In this document: one piece after another, positions 17,460 through 41,603 of the stretch
How the letters are laid out: every line of letters starts with the position of its first letter
Numbering within the stretch: the first letter of the stretch is position 1
NCBI GenBank assembly: GCA_002728715.1
Contig: PBVQ01000003.1
Span: forward strand, 1-59,426
Length of the DNA stretch: 59,426 nucleotides
Direction: 5' to 3'
DNA from: Dehalococcoidia bacterium
Lineage (GTDB): Bacteria > Chloroflexota > Dehalococcoidia > Lucifugimonadales > Lucifugimonadaceae
The notes under the pieces: model-generated
Seen by the model: the letters and a program-made list of their open reading frames with translations, nothing else
The model's database searches: none
What the model was told of the DNA's origin: nothing
Made by a program: the position numbers and the translations under genes

Positions 17460-18638
17460 TTAGCCTGCTAAATTAAATTTATCTACTGTGTGATTATTTA
17501 TCCAATCCCAATCAAGTTCAACACCAATTCCATATCCATCAGGAGCAAAAACATTTCCATTTTTATCTACTGCATCAAGTTCATCGCTATAATCTTTATA
17601 TACTTTTGACCATACATTAAATTTATTTAACTTTGGATGAACTAAGCCCAGTTCATAAAAATTAGTATTTTTTATTGAAGACATTATATGTCTATGCACA
17701 GGGCCAGGTCCATGAAGTTCTACATCAAGACCAAACCCTTCTGTTGCATGAGCTATTTTCATAGTTCCAGTTATACCTCCATCTTGATAAGCACCAGCTC
17801 TGACATAATCCGTTGATTCCGATAAAATGAAATCTACATGTTGTTCTAAAAATCTTATATGTTCTGTTTGCAGTATTGGAGTATTAATCATTTGACGTAA
17901 TTTTCTGTGAGCAAATTGTGAAACACCTCCATCTGCATACGGATCTTCAAGCCAGAAAAATTTAGCTTCATCACAAGCCCTCCCAATTCTTAGGGCATCT
18001 CCAAAATTTTTTATTTCACAAGCTGGATCAATCAGAAGATCAAGTTTGTTCTCAAAATTCTTTCCTAGTAATAACACATTTTTAATTTCTCTATCTATAT
18101 CGTTTCTAGCAAGCCCCCAACCGTGGACCTTAAATGCTTTATAACCTAACTCTAAACATTCTTGCGCAAAATCACTAAAGTCTTGAGGTGTTCCCAATCC
18201 ACCATTTTCATCTCCATGAAGAGTAGACGCATATGCTTTCAAAGGTATTTTTTCTCCTCCAAGAAGCCTATAAATAGGCTCTTCATAAATTTTTCCTGCT
18301 ATATCCCACAAACAAATATCAACATAACTATTAGCAGCATTTAATGATTGCCTCATACCTCTCTTGATATCCTTGTAAATTTCTTCTCTGGATAATGGGT
18401 TTTTTCCTATTAGATAGTTTGATACAGATTGAATCTCAGCCACATCAACTCCTGCATTCATAGGATATTCTCCTACTATACCTTGGTCAGTATGCACCTG
18501 GAGTATAGCTGCTTTTTGTTTCTTTTTTGAGCCAGGATCATATACTTGATTAAAAGTATTATAATCTGTACCGAGATTTAATGACTCCCATTCAAAAATA
18601 ACAACAGAAATTTTATTTATTTTTGGATATTTTTTCAT
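17460..18638 (-). CDS. Enolase-superfamily enzyme (mandelate racemase/muconate lactonizing type)
   Basis: A 392-aa enolase-superfamily protein, probably a sugar-acid dehydratase or racemase. The metal-binding Asp is in LLIDPACE, the first Glu in WLEDPY and a second Glu in LQTEH. A histidine in the HGPGP region may act as base. The usual KxK motif at the end of the second barrel strand reads KVH (Lys-x-His). This differs from classic mandelate racemases and matches one of the acid-sugar dehydratase-like branches. The product cannot be named. It is divergent from a cassette encoding a mutarotase-like protein, an aldo/keto reductase and an amidohydrolase. Confidence 0.87.
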   Translation of the reverse strand: MKKYPKINKISVVIFEWESLNLGTDYNTFNQVYDPGSKKKQKAAILQVHTDQGIVGEYPMNAGVDVAEIQSVSNYLIGKNPLSREEIYKDIKRGMRQSLNAANSYVDICLWDIAGKIYEEPIYRLLGGEKIPLKAYASTLHGDENGGLGTPQDFSDFAQECLELGYKAFKVHGWGLARNDIDREIKNVLLLGKNFENKLDLLIDPACEIKNFGDALRIGRACDEAKFFWLEDPYADGGVSQFAHRKLRQMINTPILQTEHIRFLEQHVDFILSESTDYVRAGAYQDGGITGTMKIAHATEGFGLDVELHGPGPVHRHIMSSIKNTNFYELGLVHPKLNKFNVWSKVYKDYSDELDAVDKNGNVFAPDGYGIGVELDWDWINNHTVDKFNLAG

Positions 18639-35548: not shown

Positions 35549-36679
35549 ATGAAAACATTATCCGAATCAGAAATATACAATAAAAATATTTTTCTAAGAG
35601 TTGATTTAAATGTACCAATGATGAATGGTAAAATTAGAGACGAATCTAAAATAACAAGTGTTATACCTACAATAAAATATTTGATAAAAAATAATAATAG
35701 AATAATTATTTGCTCTCATTTAGGTAGACCTAAAGGTTCTTACGATAAAAATTTATCTCTTGAACCTATTGCAAAAAGATTGAGTAAATTTCTTGAAAAT
35801 ATAGAAATTAAAATCATTAATTTACCCTTTGATAATCTCAGCAGAGACGAATTCCAAAGTTCTAATATATATATGCTTGAAAATATACGTTTTGATAGCA
35901 GAGAAGAGTTAAATTCTGAAACTTTATCTAATGAACTAAGTAAATTTGCAGATATTTATATCAACGATGCTTTTGCCAGCAGCCATAGAAAACATGCATC
36001 AACATATGGAATAACAAAATTCCTCCCAAGTTATGCTGGATTTTTTTTAGAAAAAGAAATTAATTCTTTGAACGAATTATTTTCAAAGAAATTTTCAAAA
36101 AAATTAGCTATCGTAGGTGGGGCAAAAGTCTCAGATAAAATACAGTTGATTAATAACCTATCAAAAAAACTTGATTTTATTCTTATAGGAGGAGGGATGA
36201 TTTCCGCTTTTGTTCAAAAAAATCATCCAGACCATGCATTTGCAGAAGAAATAGTCATAAATAGTAAAGCAAAAATAATTATTCCAGAATACGTTTTAGT
36301 AGGAAATGAGTTCAATGAAAACACTAAATATAAAATCATTAACACCGTTGACATTGAGGATAATCTGAATATAAATATTTTAGATATTGCGGAAAAATCA
36401 TTTGAAAAAATTTCAGATTATATTTCATCATCAGATATGATTATTTGGAATGGACCTGTAGGGGTTTTTGAATGGGCTAATTTCTCTCATGGGACATTAA
36501 GATTAATTGAATTATTGAAGAATACGAAAGCAAAAACATTTATAGGAGGTGGCTCTACCGCTGAAATAATACATAATACTTCCACGGGAAAATTTTTTAC
36601 ACACATATCTACTGGAGGTGGAGCAACATTAGAATTTTTAGAGGGTAAAGAGTTACCAGGCATAAAAGCACTATTATGA
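35549..36679 (+). CDS. pgk: Phosphoglycerate kinase
   Basis: Transfers phosphate between 1,3-bisphosphoglycerate and ADP in glycolysis/gluconeogenesis. RVDLNVPM near the N-terminus, the SHLGRPKG substrate loop, NDAFASSHRKHAS, and the nucleotide-binding segment of the C-terminal domain (IGGGSTAEII, then STGGGATLEFLEGK) are unmistakable. At 376 aa it is slightly shorter than the usual ~395. It overlaps tpiA by 4 nt. Confidence 0.97.
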   Translation: MKTLSESEIYNKNIFLRVDLNVPMMNGKIRDESKITSVIPTIKYLIKNNNRIIICSHLGRPKGSYDKNLSLEPIAKRLSKFLENIEIKIINLPFDNLSRDEFQSSNIYMLENIRFDSREELNSETLSNELSKFADIYINDAFASSHRKHASTYGITKFLPSYAGFFLEKEINSLNELFSKKFSKKLAIVGGAKVSDKIQLINNLSKKLDFILIGGGMISAFVQKNHPDHAFAEEIVINSKAKIIIPEYVLVGNEFNENTKYKIINTVDIEDNLNINILDIAEKSFEKISDYISSSDMIIWNGPVGVFEWANFSHGTLRLIELLKNTKAKTFIGGGSTAEIIHNTSTGKFFTHISTGGGATLEFLEGKELPGIKALL

Positions 36680-37440
36680 AGAATAAATCTTATATATCTA
36701 CCGTAGTTGCAAACTGGAAAATGCATAATGATTTCAATGCTGCTTTAGATCTAGTAATAAAAATTTTTTCATACTGTAATATGGTAAAAAATGTAGAAAA
36801 AATTATATGTCCTCCAGTTGTAAACATTATACCGCTTTATGATCAATTTAAGAATTCTACATTTAGTTTAGGTGCTCAAAATATTAACGAGAATAGTAAA
36901 GGGTCATTTACGGGTGAAATTTCCGTGAATATGTTAAAAAATTATATCTCTCATGCTATCATAGGACACTCAGAAAGAAGAGTGATATTTAATGAAAGCA
37001 ACCACACAATATCTCTCAAAGCGAAAGCACTATTAGATAACAAGATTGTGCCTATTATTTGTGTAGGAGAACCTATTGATGTATATAAAAAAAATAAATC
37101 TGTAGATTTTATAAATAATCAATTATTTGAAATTTTTTCTGAAATCCAATTAAATAGTGAAATAGTAATAGCGTATGAGCCAATTTGGTCTATTGGAAAT
37201 AAAAACCCAGCAGACCCAATATATGTAGAAAAAATCATAACTAAATCCAAGGATTTCTTATGCACATTAAAACATCTTAGAAATACAAATCTTAAATTTT
37301 TATATGGGGGTAGCGTTAGTTCTAAAAATGTATTAGATTATACCAACCAAAAAAATATAGATGGAGTTCTAGTTGGAAGTGCGAGTTTAGATGCTAGTGA
37401 ATTTGGGAAAATAGTATTACAAATATCGAAAAATGGATAA
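36676..37440 (+). CDS. tpiA: Triosephosphate isomerase
   Basis: Interconverts dihydroxyacetone phosphate and glyceraldehyde-3-phosphate. The substrate-binding NWKMH, catalytic His in GHSERR, catalytic Glu in AYEPIWSIG (flexible loop region) and phosphate-binding LYGGSVSS are present. The length, 254 aa, is normal. It is coupled to pgk upstream (4-nt overlap) and to miaA downstream (8-nt overlap). Confidence 0.97.
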   Translation: MKNKSYISTVVANWKMHNDFNAALDLVIKIFSYCNMVKNVEKIICPPVVNIIPLYDQFKNSTFSLGAQNINENSKGSFTGEISVNMLKNYISHAIIGHSERRVIFNESNHTISLKAKALLDNKIVPIICVGEPIDVYKKNKSVDFINNQLFEIFSEIQLNSEIVIAYEPIWSIGNKNPADPIYVEKIITKSKDFLCTLKHLRNTNLKFLYGGSVSSKNVLDYTNQKNIDGVLVGSASLDASEFGKIVLQISKNG

Positions 37441-38356
37441 AAAAAACAAGATAATTGTAATAGTTGGAGCTACTGCAAGTGGAAAATCTAGCTTAGGTAT
37501 AAAACTAGCAAATCACCTTAGTTCTGAAATTATAAATGCTGATTCAAGGTTATTTTATAGAGGGCTCAATATTGGAACAGCTAAACCCACTAAGAGTGAA
37601 TTAAGTCTAACTAAACATCATTTAATTGATATTTTAGATCCTGATGAAAAATTTACTTTAAACAATTTTTTGATTTTAGTTCGAAGACAAATCGAAAAAT
37701 TACACAGTGAAAAAAAAATCCCCATAATTGTTGGAGGCTCAGGTCAATATATTTGGTCACTTATTGAAGGTTGGAATATACCAAAAGTAAAACCAGATAC
37801 TGAACTTAGGTCAAATCTAGAAAAACAACTTAATCAATATGGTATTGAACACCTTCAAGTTATGCTAAAAAATTTATCTGAGAAATTATATGAGCAAACA
37901 GATTTACTAAACCCAAGGAGAATTATAAGATCTATTGAAATTGCAAAAAGTTCATTAGACAATAAGGTTCAAAAGAACGAAAATCTAACGTATGATTCAT
38001 TTATTGTCGGACTAAATATAGAAAGAAAGTTACTTCACTCAAAAGTACGAAATAGATTAAACAAGATGCTAAATGATGGCTTTATCGAAGAGATCAATAC
38101 TCTAATTGCAAAAGGATATGATAGTTCTTTGCAGTCGATGAGCAGTATTGGTTACAAAGAATTTATAAATTATGTAAATGGTGAATACTCAAAAGAAGAA
38201 GCCATTGAGAAAACAATTATTTCTACAAATAGGCTAATTCGTAATCAAAATAATTGGTTCAAGCAGAGCGATGATAGAATCTTTTGGATTAATAATAATG
38301 AAGAAAAAAATTTTAATTTGTTAAAAAATCTTATAAAAAAATGGATAAAAACATAA
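37433..38356 (+). CDS. miaA: tRNA dimethylallyltransferase
   Basis: Adds the isopentenyl group to A37 of tRNAs reading UNN codons. The P-loop GATASGKSSLG sits near residues 12-22. Other MiaA hallmarks are INADSRLFYRGLNIGTAKP, the LVGGSGQY-like IVGGSGQYIW segment, and SIGYKEF in the tRNA-binding part. The length, 307 aa, is typical. It ends 43 nt before the dapF-like gene. Confidence 0.96.
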   Translation: MDKKNKIIVIVGATASGKSSLGIKLANHLSSEIINADSRLFYRGLNIGTAKPTKSELSLTKHHLIDILDPDEKFTLNNFLILVRRQIEKLHSEKKIPIIVGGSGQYIWSLIEGWNIPKVKPDTELRSNLEKQLNQYGIEHLQVMLKNLSEKLYEQTDLLNPRRIIRSIEIAKSSLDNKVQKNENLTYDSFIVGLNIERKLLHSKVRNRLNKMLNDGFIEEINTLIAKGYDSSLQSMSSIGYKEFINYVNGEYSKEEAIEKTIISTNRLIRNQNNWFKQSDDRIFWINNNEEKNFNLLKNLIKKWIKT

Positions 38357-38399: not shown

Positions 38400-39272
38400 A
38401 TGATTATTAATTTCACAAAATTACAGGGCGCAGGTAATGGCTACATAGCCATAGACGGCAGAGACATCACCGTTTCTTGGGGGAAATTAGCAAAAGAGAT
38501 GGGTGACCCAGCTTTCGGAGTTGGTTCAGACGGGATTGTAGTGGTAGAAAATTCTAAATTAGCTTCAATTAAGATGCGAGTATTCAATACTGATGGATCA
38601 GAAGCCGAAATGAGTGGTAACGGTATAAGACTATTTTCTAAATTTGTAATCGACAATAAAATTTGTTTACCAGTCAATAACGCTTTAGATATAGAAACAT
38701 TGGGAGGTATTCGAACTGTTTGGCCTGAAATTTCAAATGAAAAAATGATCTCAGCTAAAGTAGCCATGGGTAAGCCAACATTCAAAACAGAAAAGGTCCC
38801 TGTTGATGTAAAAAAAGTTGAGGATATTTCACCTGTCCAAAATTATTCTTTAAAAATCAATCATGACAAATTTAAGGAAATTAAAATAACATGCTTGTCT
38901 ATTGGTAACCCTCATGCAGTTTGTATTTTAGACACCCCTGTAGAAGAATTCCCACTTAATGATATTGGTCCATTAGTTGAGAATCATGAAATTTTCCCAA
39001 ACAGAATAAATTTCGAAATAGTTAATGTAATAAACGAAAATACTATCCGTGCAAGAATATTTGAAAGGGGAGAAGGAGAAACATTATCATCGGGAACAGG
39101 AAGTACAGCATCAGCATGTGCATCAAGAAAGTTAGGATTTGTAAAGGAAAAAGTTGAAGTGATACTTGATGGTGGGGTACTAAAAATCTCATGGGATAAT
39201 GATGGAGAAGCGTACCTTGAAGGTCCCGCAGAGGAAGTTTTCACTGGAAAATGGGAAATTAAAAATCACTAA
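38400..39272 (+). CDS. dapF: DapF-family epimerase lacking both catalytic cysteines
   Basis: Homologous over its full 290 aa to diaminopimelate epimerase, which interconverts LL- and meso-DAP by a two-cysteine acid-base mechanism. Conserved blocks are FTKLQGAGN, GVGSDG, FNTDGSEAEM, SIGNPHAV and FERGEGET. Both catalytic cysteines are replaced. The usual MCGNG reads MSGNG (Ser72, AGT at 38613-38615), and the usual ACGTG reads SSGTG (Ser231, TCG at 39090-39092). dapL follows after 14 nt, so a role in DAP/lysine synthesis is expected by context. Activity as a normal epimerase is doubtful without the thiols. It might be a different isomerase or dehydratase, or an epimerase using serines. Confidence 0.85.
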   Translation: MIINFTKLQGAGNGYIAIDGRDITVSWGKLAKEMGDPAFGVGSDGIVVVENSKLASIKMRVFNTDGSEAEMSGNGIRLFSKFVIDNKICLPVNNALDIETLGGIRTVWPEISNEKMISAKVAMGKPTFKTEKVPVDVKKVEDISPVQNYSLKINHDKFKEIKITCLSIGNPHAVCILDTPVEEFPLNDIGPLVENHEIFPNRINFEIVNVINENTIRARIFERGEGETLSSGTGSTASACASRKLGFVKEKVEVILDGGVLKISWDNDGEAYLEGPAEEVFTGKWEIKNH

Positions 39273-39286
39273 GGAAATAAATTATT

Positions 39287-40453
39287 ATGAAATTTGCTAA
39301 ACGAGTTGAACAATTACCGCCATACCTTTTTGTTAATATATCAAGAGCTATCGCAGAAAAAAAGAAACAAGGAATAGATGTCATATCTTTTGGAATTGGA
39401 GATCCAGATATTCCTACTCCTCAAAAAGTTTTAGACGCACTTATAGATTCGTCACAAAAACCAGAAAATCATAAATATCCAGAAAGTGAAGGATTACCAG
39501 AATTTCGCAAGGCTGTGGCTGAATTTTATAAAGACAGATTTAATGTGAATTTAGATTATGAAACAGAGATAATTAATTTAATTGGTGCAAAAGAGGGTAT
39601 TGCTCATGCCGCTCTATGCTTTATAGACCCAGGAGATATTTCATTAAGTACTAACCCAGCATACCCTGTGTACGAAATAGGTACTATGTTTGCTGGTGGT
39701 CAAACTCACTTTTTGAATTTAGAAGAAAAAAATCAATATCTCGTTGATTTTACTTCAATTCCAACAAATATAGCAAAAAAAGCAAAAACATTATGGTTAA
39801 ATTACCCAAACAATCCAACAGGAGCTATTGCTCCTATATCATTTTTTGAAGAAGCAGTTAAATTTTGTAAGGAATTTGATATAGCCCTACTACATGATGC
39901 TGCTTACACAGAAGTAACTTATGATGATTATGTTGCTCCAAGTATTCTACAGGTTGAGGGAGCTATGGATATTGCGATGGAATTCCACTCTTTATCGAAG
40001 ACTGCCAATATGACTGGCTGGAGAGTAGGTATGGCTGCAGGTAATAAAGACATGGTTAATGCACTTATGAGAGTAAAATCTAACATAGATTCAGGCCTAT
40101 CTCAATCAAATCAGTATATGGGAATAGCAGCGTTGAAACTTAGCGACGATTGGTATAAGCAAAACAATGAAATTTATAAAAAAAGAAGAGATAAAGTAGT
40201 AGATGTATTAAATAGTATCGGAGTAAAAACAGTAAAGCCTAAAGGAGGCTTGTACATATGGACCCCTGTACCAAAAGGTTATACATCTGCTGAATTTGCA
40301 GAGAAACTACTAAATGAAGCAAACGTTGTTGTAACCCCGGGTAATGGATACGGTGATGCAGGTGAAGGTTATATTAGACTTTCATTAACTATCCCGGATG
40401 ACCAGATAGATGAAGGATTAATTCGACTGTCAAAAATTAGAGTTAGTTCCTAA
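39287..40453 (+). CDS. dapL: LL-diaminopimelate aminotransferase
   Basis: A class I PLP aminotransferase that converts tetrahydrodipicolinate directly to LL-DAP, bypassing succinyl or acetyl intermediates. Diagnostic segments include FGIGDPDIPTP, KYPESEGLPEFR, LNYPNNPTGA and the PLP-lysine motif SLSKTANMTGWRVG. The C-terminal substrate arginine lies in YIRLSL. The length, 388 aa, matches the shorter DapL2-type branch. The 14-nt gap to dapF supports the assignment over a general aspartate aminotransferase. Its ATG has AAGGA seven to eight bases upstream. Confidence 0.9.
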   Translation: MKFAKRVEQLPPYLFVNISRAIAEKKKQGIDVISFGIGDPDIPTPQKVLDALIDSSQKPENHKYPESEGLPEFRKAVAEFYKDRFNVNLDYETEIINLIGAKEGIAHAALCFIDPGDISLSTNPAYPVYEIGTMFAGGQTHFLNLEEKNQYLVDFTSIPTNIAKKAKTLWLNYPNNPTGAIAPISFFEEAVKFCKEFDIALLHDAAYTEVTYDDYVAPSILQVEGAMDIAMEFHSLSKTANMTGWRVGMAAGNKDMVNALMRVKSNIDSGLSQSNQYMGIAALKLSDDWYKQNNEIYKKRRDKVVDVLNSIGVKTVKPKGGLYIWTPVPKGYTSAEFAEKLLNEANVVVTPGNGYGDAGEGYIRLSLTIPDDQIDEGLIRLSKIRVSS

Positions 40454-40463
40454 ATAATACTTA

Positions 40464-41603
40464 ATGCCAAAACATAAAACCTACAAAACTGGACCGTTCT
40501 TTGAAAGAGCAGTACTTGTTGGTATAAGTTTAAGAAACAAAGAGAATAATTGGAGTATAGATGATTCCCTTTCAGAACTTTCTCAACTAGCAATAGCCGC
40601 AAAAACCAATCCTATAACTCGATTTTCACAATCATTAAATTCCCCTAGTCAAACGTATTTAGGAAAGGGTAAATTAAATGAACTAAAAGATTTGATTGAT
40701 AAAAAAAAAATAAATGTTGCAATATTCGATGATGAATTAAATCCAAATCAACAAAGGATGCTAGAAGACCAACTAAAAATAAAGGTTATTGATAGAACAG
40801 CACTAATTATTGATGTGTTTGCACAAAGAGCAAATACAAAAGAAGGGCGTTTGCAAATTGAATTAGCCCAAACAGAATATTTGTTACCTAGATTAGCTGG
40901 ACAATGGTCCCATCTTGAGAGATTAGGTGGTGGTGTTGGAACTAGAGGACCTGGTGAAACTCAAATTGAAACTGACAGAAGATTAGTTAGAAAAAAAATT
41001 AGTAGAATTAAAAAGGAAATAGATAGAATAAAAAGTCAGAGAGAAAACCAAAGAAATAATAGATATAACAATTTAACTAACAATGTTTCAATAGTTGGAT
41101 ATACAAATGCAGGCAAATCAGCATTATTTAATAACTTAACAAGTTCAAAAGTAATCGAAAAAAATCAATTGTTTTCAACGTTAGATACTACTTCAAGAAA
41201 ATTATTTATAAACACAGATCTTAACTGCATAATAAGTGACACTGTTGGATTTGTAAATAAACTTCCACCTATACTAGTAGCTGCCTTTAGAACAACTCTT
41301 GAAGAGTCTATTAATTCTCAATTATTATTACATGTTTCAGATATATCAAGCCCGTACCTTATTGAGCAAATCACAGTAGTAAATAAACAACTTAATGAAC
41401 TTGGAATAGGTAACAAACCAAAAATTCTAGTTCTAAATAAAAAAGACCTTATAAGTGCAAAAGAATATGACCTAATCGATAAAAATATATATAAAAAAAT
41501 ATACGAAACCGGAATAACATATGAAGACATAATTTTATCTTCAGCCCAAGAAAATTGGGGTATAACAGAAATCAAAACATCTATAAAACAATTCTTCAAC
41601 TAA
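40464..41603 (+). CDS. hflX: GTPase HflX
   Basis: A ribosome-associated GTPase that splits stalled ribosomes. The N-terminal HflX domain contains NPNQQRMLE and DRTALIIDVFA, followed by the GGVGTRGPGETQIETDRR linker. The G domain has G1 (GYTNAGKSAL), G3 (DTVGF), G4 (NKKD) and a G5-like SSAQ. The length, 379 aa, is normal for compact HflX. A 92-bp gap follows, before ctpA; I see no tRNA or clear terminator in it. Confidence 0.95.
   Translation: MPKHKTYKTGPFFERAVLVGISLRNKENNWSIDDSLSELSQLAIAAKTNPITRFSQSLNSPSQTYLGKGKLNELKDLIDKKKINVAIFDDELNPNQQRMLEDQLKIKVIDRTALIIDVFAQRANTKEGRLQIELAQTEYLLPRLAGQWSHLERLGGGVGTRGPGETQIETDRRLVRKKISRIKKEIDRIKSQRENQRNNRYNNLTNNVSIVGYTNAGKSALFNNLTSSKVIEKNQLFSTLDTTSRKLFINTDLNCIISDTVGFVNKLPPILVAAFRTTLEESINSQLLLHVSDISSPYLIEQITVVNKQLNELGIGNKPKILVLNKKDLISAKEYDLIDKNIYKKIYETGITYEDIILSSAQENWGITEIKTSIKQFFN

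Follow-up and report, generated by a model that had tools for sequence, protein, structure and literature searches.

A DapF homologue with serine at both catalytic cysteine positions in a family of Dehalococcoidia

The window analysed here, a 59,426-nucleotide stretch of a Dehalococcoidia contig, encodes a homologue of diaminopimelate epimerase (DapF) in which serine stands at the positions of both catalytic cysteines. All 31 sequences that we retrieved for the family of the window's genome (the own family), representing 12 genera and separate assemblies, have the same two serines. On balance, we consider this protein to be probably a functional DapF that would use its serines as an acid-base pair and still epimerise LL-DAP for lysine. 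No report of a natural Ser/Ser DapF was found in the open-access literature, and we know of no cofactor-free amino-acid epimerase with a Ser/Ser pair.

The gene and its fixation in the family

The dapF gene (38400..39272, forward strand, like the neighbours and codons listed below) encodes 290 aa. It was identified by its match to TIGR00652, by an AlphaFold2 model, and by DapF structures being the best PDB matches. The score against the TIGR00652 DapF equivalog is 243.2 bits, far over the cut-off of 114.65, so automatic annotation would not flag the protein as Ser/Ser. Its translation contains EMSGNGIR, with MSGNG at residues 71-75, and ETLSSGTGS, with SSGTG at residues 230-234. Ser72 (AGT, 38613..38615) lies at the position of catalytic Cys73 of Haemophilus influenzae DapF, and Ser231 (TCG, 39090..39092) at that of catalytic Cys217. 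Upstream are the conserved neighbours tpiA (36676..37440) and miaA (37433..38356). Downstream are dapL, for LL-diaminopimelate aminotransferase (39287..40453; PRK09276, 589 bits), with its ATG at 39287 and thus 14 nt after the dapF stop, and hflX (40464..41603), also a conserved neighbour. The order tpiA-miaA-dapF-dapL-hflX is found across the class, and dapF lies beside dapL at this locus in most own-family members. Identity of the window protein is ~40-49% to Cys/Cys members of the order and 32% to a Ser/Ser protein of another clade in the same class. This higher identity to the Cys/Cys proteins, together with the retained ancestral gene order, indicates that the gene is a vertical orthologue. 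At residue 14 (38439-38441), the window's genus has Gly (GNGY) in place of the Asp (GNDY) found in the rest of the family and in almost all DapF proteins.

Our survey covered 233 dapF sequences, drawn from relatives, from the class, from further classes of the phylum and from outgroups. Outside the own family, the rest of the order has 23 Cys/Cys and 1 Ser/Cys sequences, and the rest of the class has 89 Cys/Cys, 8 Ser/Cys, 8 Cys/Ser and 1 Ser/Ser (two partial). Other Chloroflexota classes contribute 32 Cys/Cys and 13 Ser/Ser. Sampling beyond Chloroflexota was thin, comprising 25 outgroup loci (clostridia, Thermoplasmatota, Thermoleophilia and others), every one Cys/Cys, and three readable dapF genes from a plasmid collection, likewise all Cys/Cys.

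Within the own family, the first serine is encoded by AGY (AGT or AGC) in 31/31 sequences and the second by TCN (TCA, TCG, TCT or TCC) in 31/31; third codon positions vary freely while serine stays constant. Pairwise dN/dS is 0.04-0.13 for pairs with unsaturated dS. In-frame stops were listed for three relatives, and in the two of these fetched as loci the frames reach query residue ~285. The assembly behind the window is incomplete and of metagenome type, a setting in which errors of sequencing or assembly, or decay of the gene, might be suspected. However, all 31 own-family genomes agree, their frames are open over the full length, and dN/dS is well below 1. The unanimity, the free synonymous drift and the low dN/dS together exclude error and decay, to which we attach a negligible probability. 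A preliminary description of this DNA had pointed out the two serine motifs with their AGT and TCG codons and the 14-nt spacing to dapL, all of which the reading frame and codons bear out. It had also judged two Cys-to-Ser changes unlikely to be errors, as the separate assemblies now confirm. The alignment with relatives that it proposed finds the Ser/Ser form fixed in the own family, and the case that it named against itself, close homologues with cysteines beside a decaying copy, is contradicted by the uniformly Ser/Ser family and its dN/dS.

Retained residues and repeated origins of the serine forms

In the DapF of C. glutamicum (CgDapF), alanine mutants of N15, N74, N85, N159, N194, E212, R213 and T223 lose almost all activity (PMC5296763). 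The equivalents in the window protein are N13, N63, N74, N170, N204, E222, R223 and T233. All eight of these DAP-contacting residues are invariant in the own family, N13 being uncovered in one truncated sequence. His172 (GNPH, 38913..38915) is retained in all full-length sequences examined, and His172 and Glu222 are both present in 31/31 own-family sequences and are equally conserved in Cys/Cys enzymes. The AlphaFold2 model (pLDDT 89.9, pTM 0.86) has the two-domain DapF fold, with Z scores of 36.5 to 8QZY and 36.3 to 2OTN. Helices 73-85 and 232-244 of the model place Ser72 and Ser231 at the two helix N-termini where DapF has its catalytic cysteines.

Three further changes are fixed in the own family and are rare or missing among Cys/Cys proteins. 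Ala17 (38448..38450) is found in 30/30 own-family sequences, in the own family only, and in 0% of 169 Cys/Cys sequences. Leu78 (38631..38633) replaces a third, near-invariant cysteine (C in 164/169 Cys/Cys sequences), at which the second Ser/Ser clade described below has Ile. Phe221, in the pair Phe221-Glu222 (39060..39065), replaces a Trp found elsewhere, beside the conserved Glu. Loss of Cys78 tracks the double-Ser state in both clades, since single-site Ser forms retain it. Cys165 is present in 31/31 own-family members and in about half of the Cys/Cys sequences, and the second Ser/Ser clade lacks it. We rejected it as a relocated catalytic cysteine because it is missing from that clade and, in the model, sits in strand 160-167, away from the helix N-termini.

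How often did the Ser/Ser form arise? In a careful tree of 46 rows, from which the trait columns were left out, the own family is a 100/100 clade nested within the Cys/Cys order, and the other Ser/Ser proteins form a separate 98/98 clade with the motifs KSGNG...ASG[TS]S and GNPHC. A single origin of all Ser/Ser forms was rejected with the 46-row tree (p 0.0045), but not with a quick tree of 130 rows (p 0.20). These comparisons indicate that Ser/Ser arose at least twice, in the own family and in a clade in other Chloroflexota classes. Parsimony requires at least 7 changes at the first site and at least 3 at the second, every one between Cys and Ser; no other residue was seen. Since 2 of the 7 missense changes that one base can cause in TGY lead to Ser, ten Ser outcomes by random single-base change have a probability of (2/7)^10, or ~4e-6. 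The figure argues that Ser has been selected, though by itself not that catalysis has been. Ser is the closest in shape to Cys, and its exclusive use could therefore reflect packing.

Serine forms recur outside the own family. The second Ser/Ser type (KSGNGxRI...GNPHC...ASG[TS]S) was seen at 14 loci from several other Chloroflexota families; it adjoins lysA in two genomes and an aminotransferase gene in another. In one family, 8/8 genomes combine Cys at the first catalytic position with Ser at the second (ASGTS). Nine loci carry a single Ser/Cys DapF, and the occurrence of both AGC and TCN serine codons among them points to several separate origins. One of these, L092, is an unlikely stepping stone to the own family; its serine codon is TCC, as opposed to the AGY of the family, and in the tree it joins a Cys/Cys protein. 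One Cys/Cys DapF has a very long branch and may function differently; its genome, 95% complete, gave no LysA match at 1e-30.

A serine-based route to meso-DAP and its alternatives

The own-family genomes retain a lysine pathway around this protein. A lysA gene is present in nearly every one, mostly scoring over the cut-off; that of the window's genome lies at C3:170583-171851 (439 bits, cut-off 297.9). The dapB gene was found in 20 of the 23 own-family genomes tested and is missing from the window's incomplete bin. The window DapF is the sole PF01678 protein in this bin (1.35 Mb, ~84% complete), which thus has no second DapF, Cys-containing or other. Neither DAP dehydrogenase nor MurE was found over its cut-off among 60 relatives, and alanine racemase (Alr) was not detected in the own family. 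That none of the three was detected in this way suggests that DAP probably serves lysine only. DapF appears to be the sole known route from LL- to meso-DAP in the own-family genomes. Genomes of the second Ser/Ser clade have lysA over the cut-off in 11/14 cases and most have MurE, the substrate motifs of which were legible in few loci only. More widely, 94 of 161 Chloroflexota genomes at least 80% complete have no DapF match at all, and meso-DAP or lysine must come otherwise there.

We propose that LL-DAP from DapL is converted to meso-DAP by the Ser/Ser DapF and passed to LysA. The accepted mechanism of DapF employs a thiol/thiolate pair at helix N-termini (PMC12039745). In the window protein, Ser72 and Ser231, at the N-termini of the two central helices, would take over the acid and base roles of the cysteines as proton donor and acceptor, possibly aided by His172 and Glu222. 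Ala17, Leu78 and Phe221 would then be adjusting changes.

A natural Ser/Cys 4-hydroxyproline epimerase works (PMC4113996). Among related enzymes, Cys-to-Ser mutants of PddB have under 0.1% activity (PMC8225329) and those of HisR have greatly reduced activity (PMC11602996), and recombinant Ser-Cys and Cys-Thr homologues of proline racemase neither racemised nor epimerised proline or hydroxyproline (PMC1964878). A Ser/Ser DapF would probably be slower than the Cys enzymes, which would suit slow, wall-less, SAR202-like cells. The kcat of CgDapF is 58/s (PMC5296763). At 0.1% of this value, with growth at 0.2/day and saturated substrate, we estimate that ~250 DapF copies cover lysine demand, on the assumption that a small cell contains 6 million lysines. 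That ~250 saturated copies suffice suggests that a slow enzyme is affordable. A possible benefit is suggested by the disulfide inactivation seen in CgDapF (PMC5296763), to which the Ser/Ser form may be resistant.

The host genome, small and AT-rich (31.5% GC in the window), is rich in paralogs of the mandelate-racemase/muconate-lactonizing (MR/MLE) family, and we infer a SAR202-like, slow and wall-less organism. Growth rates of 0.18-0.24 per day are reported for cultured strains of marine SAR202 group I, in which peptidoglycan genes are missing, and richness in MR/MLE paralogs is a reported hallmark of this group (PMC10444878; cf. PMC11994032). An MR/MLE paralog lies in the window at 17511-18434 on the reverse strand, and there are about 20 more such places in the 606 kb examined; some of these could be amino-acid racemases. 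In one own-family member, a 400-kb sample has a GC content of 51.7%, and 3 of 10 proteins scanned are MR/MLE.

The MR/MLE paralogs bear on an alternative explanation, that the Ser/Ser protein binds DAP or an analogue but performs other chemistry (one-sided deuterium exchange, elimination, or action on another substrate) while another enzyme, such as an MR/MLE paralog, makes meso-DAP. We know of no MR/MLE family member that epimerises DAP, which counts against this idea. Nonetheless, the superfamily includes amino-acid racemases (PMC8142540), the genome bin is incomplete, its paralogs could include another racemase, a racemase of a different fold may exist, and Ser or Thr replacements in the proline racemase superfamily accompany dehydratases (PMC4113996). 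The fixed A17, L78 and F221 are also suggestive of retuning. Set against this, every DAP-contacting residue is unchanged, dapF stays beside dapL at the ancestral locus in most members, and the second Ser/Ser clade keeps LysA, with lysA or an aminotransferase gene adjoining in some genomes. We therefore regard a changed activity as unlikely. It is likewise unlikely, in our view, that the protein is an epimerase working through other bases (His172 with Glu222, water, or Cys165) with purely structural serines. PhzF has the same fold without the Cys pair, neither His172 nor Glu222 varies among the 31 sequences, and Cys165 is invariant in the family. However, His172 and Glu222 are no less conserved in Cys/Cys enzymes, Cys165 has the strand position and clade distribution described above, and the replacing residue is always Ser.

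Loss of catalysis, with retention of the protein for a second role and lysine made from trace meso-DAP or by an LL-DAP-tolerant LysA, seems very unlikely. There is a precedent for such a role: E. coli DapF is reported to bind the RNA pyrophosphohydrolase RppH directly and to regulate it (PMC4227774). The own-family LysA also differs at a few positions. Yet active-site residues, which would be expected to drift after loss of catalysis, are constant. LysA itself is canonical by its score, and its handful of own-family-specific positions are ordinary-looking and none is compelling; we rejected retuning of LysA for LL-DAP on these grounds.

Taken together, the presence of lysA, the kept DAP-binding residues, the ancestral locus, and the failure to find a DAP dehydrogenase, second DapF or Alr favour the serine epimerase. 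The preliminary description had left two readings side by side, a serine-based epimerase or a new activity. The checks that it suggested in the genomes found lysA, with no second Cys-containing dapF in the bin and no DAP dehydrogenase or MurE over cut-off among the 60 relatives; we favour the former reading, the latter being less supported. The broader proposition has, in our estimation, an even chance of being right: that cofactor-free Ser/Ser acid-base epimerases exist and evolved at least twice from Cys/Cys ancestors in Chloroflexota, so that stereoinversion at an unactivated amino-acid alpha-carbon does not strictly depend on the low pKa of a thiol.

Significance and relation to known enzymes

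DapF is a model for how a proton of very low acidity (pKa ~29) is removed without a cofactor. If a natural, repeatedly evolved Ser/Ser form is indeed an epimerase, the rest of the active site can bear the catalytic burden; alternatively, a new reaction is hidden beneath an automatic DapF annotation. Because annotation models accept Ser/Ser proteins without any warning, a predicted activity underlies the lysine pathways assigned to a widespread marine group. Cys-reactive DapF inhibitors should fail on the Ser/Ser form.

The closest known system is DapF itself (TIGR00652; H. influenzae 1GQZ, B. anthracis 2OTN, C. glutamicum 5M47). The window protein shares its fold, length, DAP-contacting residues, placement of the catalytic residues at helix N-termini and lysine-pathway context. 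It differs in having Ser/Ser, Leu78, Phe221 and Ala17, where known DapF proteins have Cys/Cys, Cys78 and Trp221 and lack the alanine. The engineered C73S and C217S forms of H. influenzae DapF (PDB 2Q9H, 2Q9J), which are among the nearest structures of the model (Foldseek, VIA), have serine at the same positions. Those are single laboratory changes, whereas the window protein has two that are natural, fixed and joined by accompanying changes.

More distant relatives are less similar. DcsC, an O-ureidoserine racemase, matches at 96.7 bits and B. anthracis DapF at 175.2 bits, so DapF is closer; the neighbours tpiA, miaA, dapL and hflX also disfavour a DcsC identity. PhzF, an isomerase with a carboxylate base, lacks a Cys/Cys pair and has the same fold, but its identity to the window DapF is ~15% and its active-site motifs are different. 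Members of the proline racemase superfamily are ~11-16% identical to the model in the structure search. The dehydratases among them, of Cys/Thr or Ser/Thr type, have Thr at the second catalytic position, where the own family has Ser231 in 31/31 sequences, with the DAP-site residues kept. The Agrobacterium vitis 4-hydroxyproline epimerase of this superfamily offers a natural parallel, as a cofactor-free two-base enzyme that works with a natural catalytic Cys-to-Ser change (PMC4113996). Unlike the window protein, it has only one of its two cysteines replaced and acts on another substrate.
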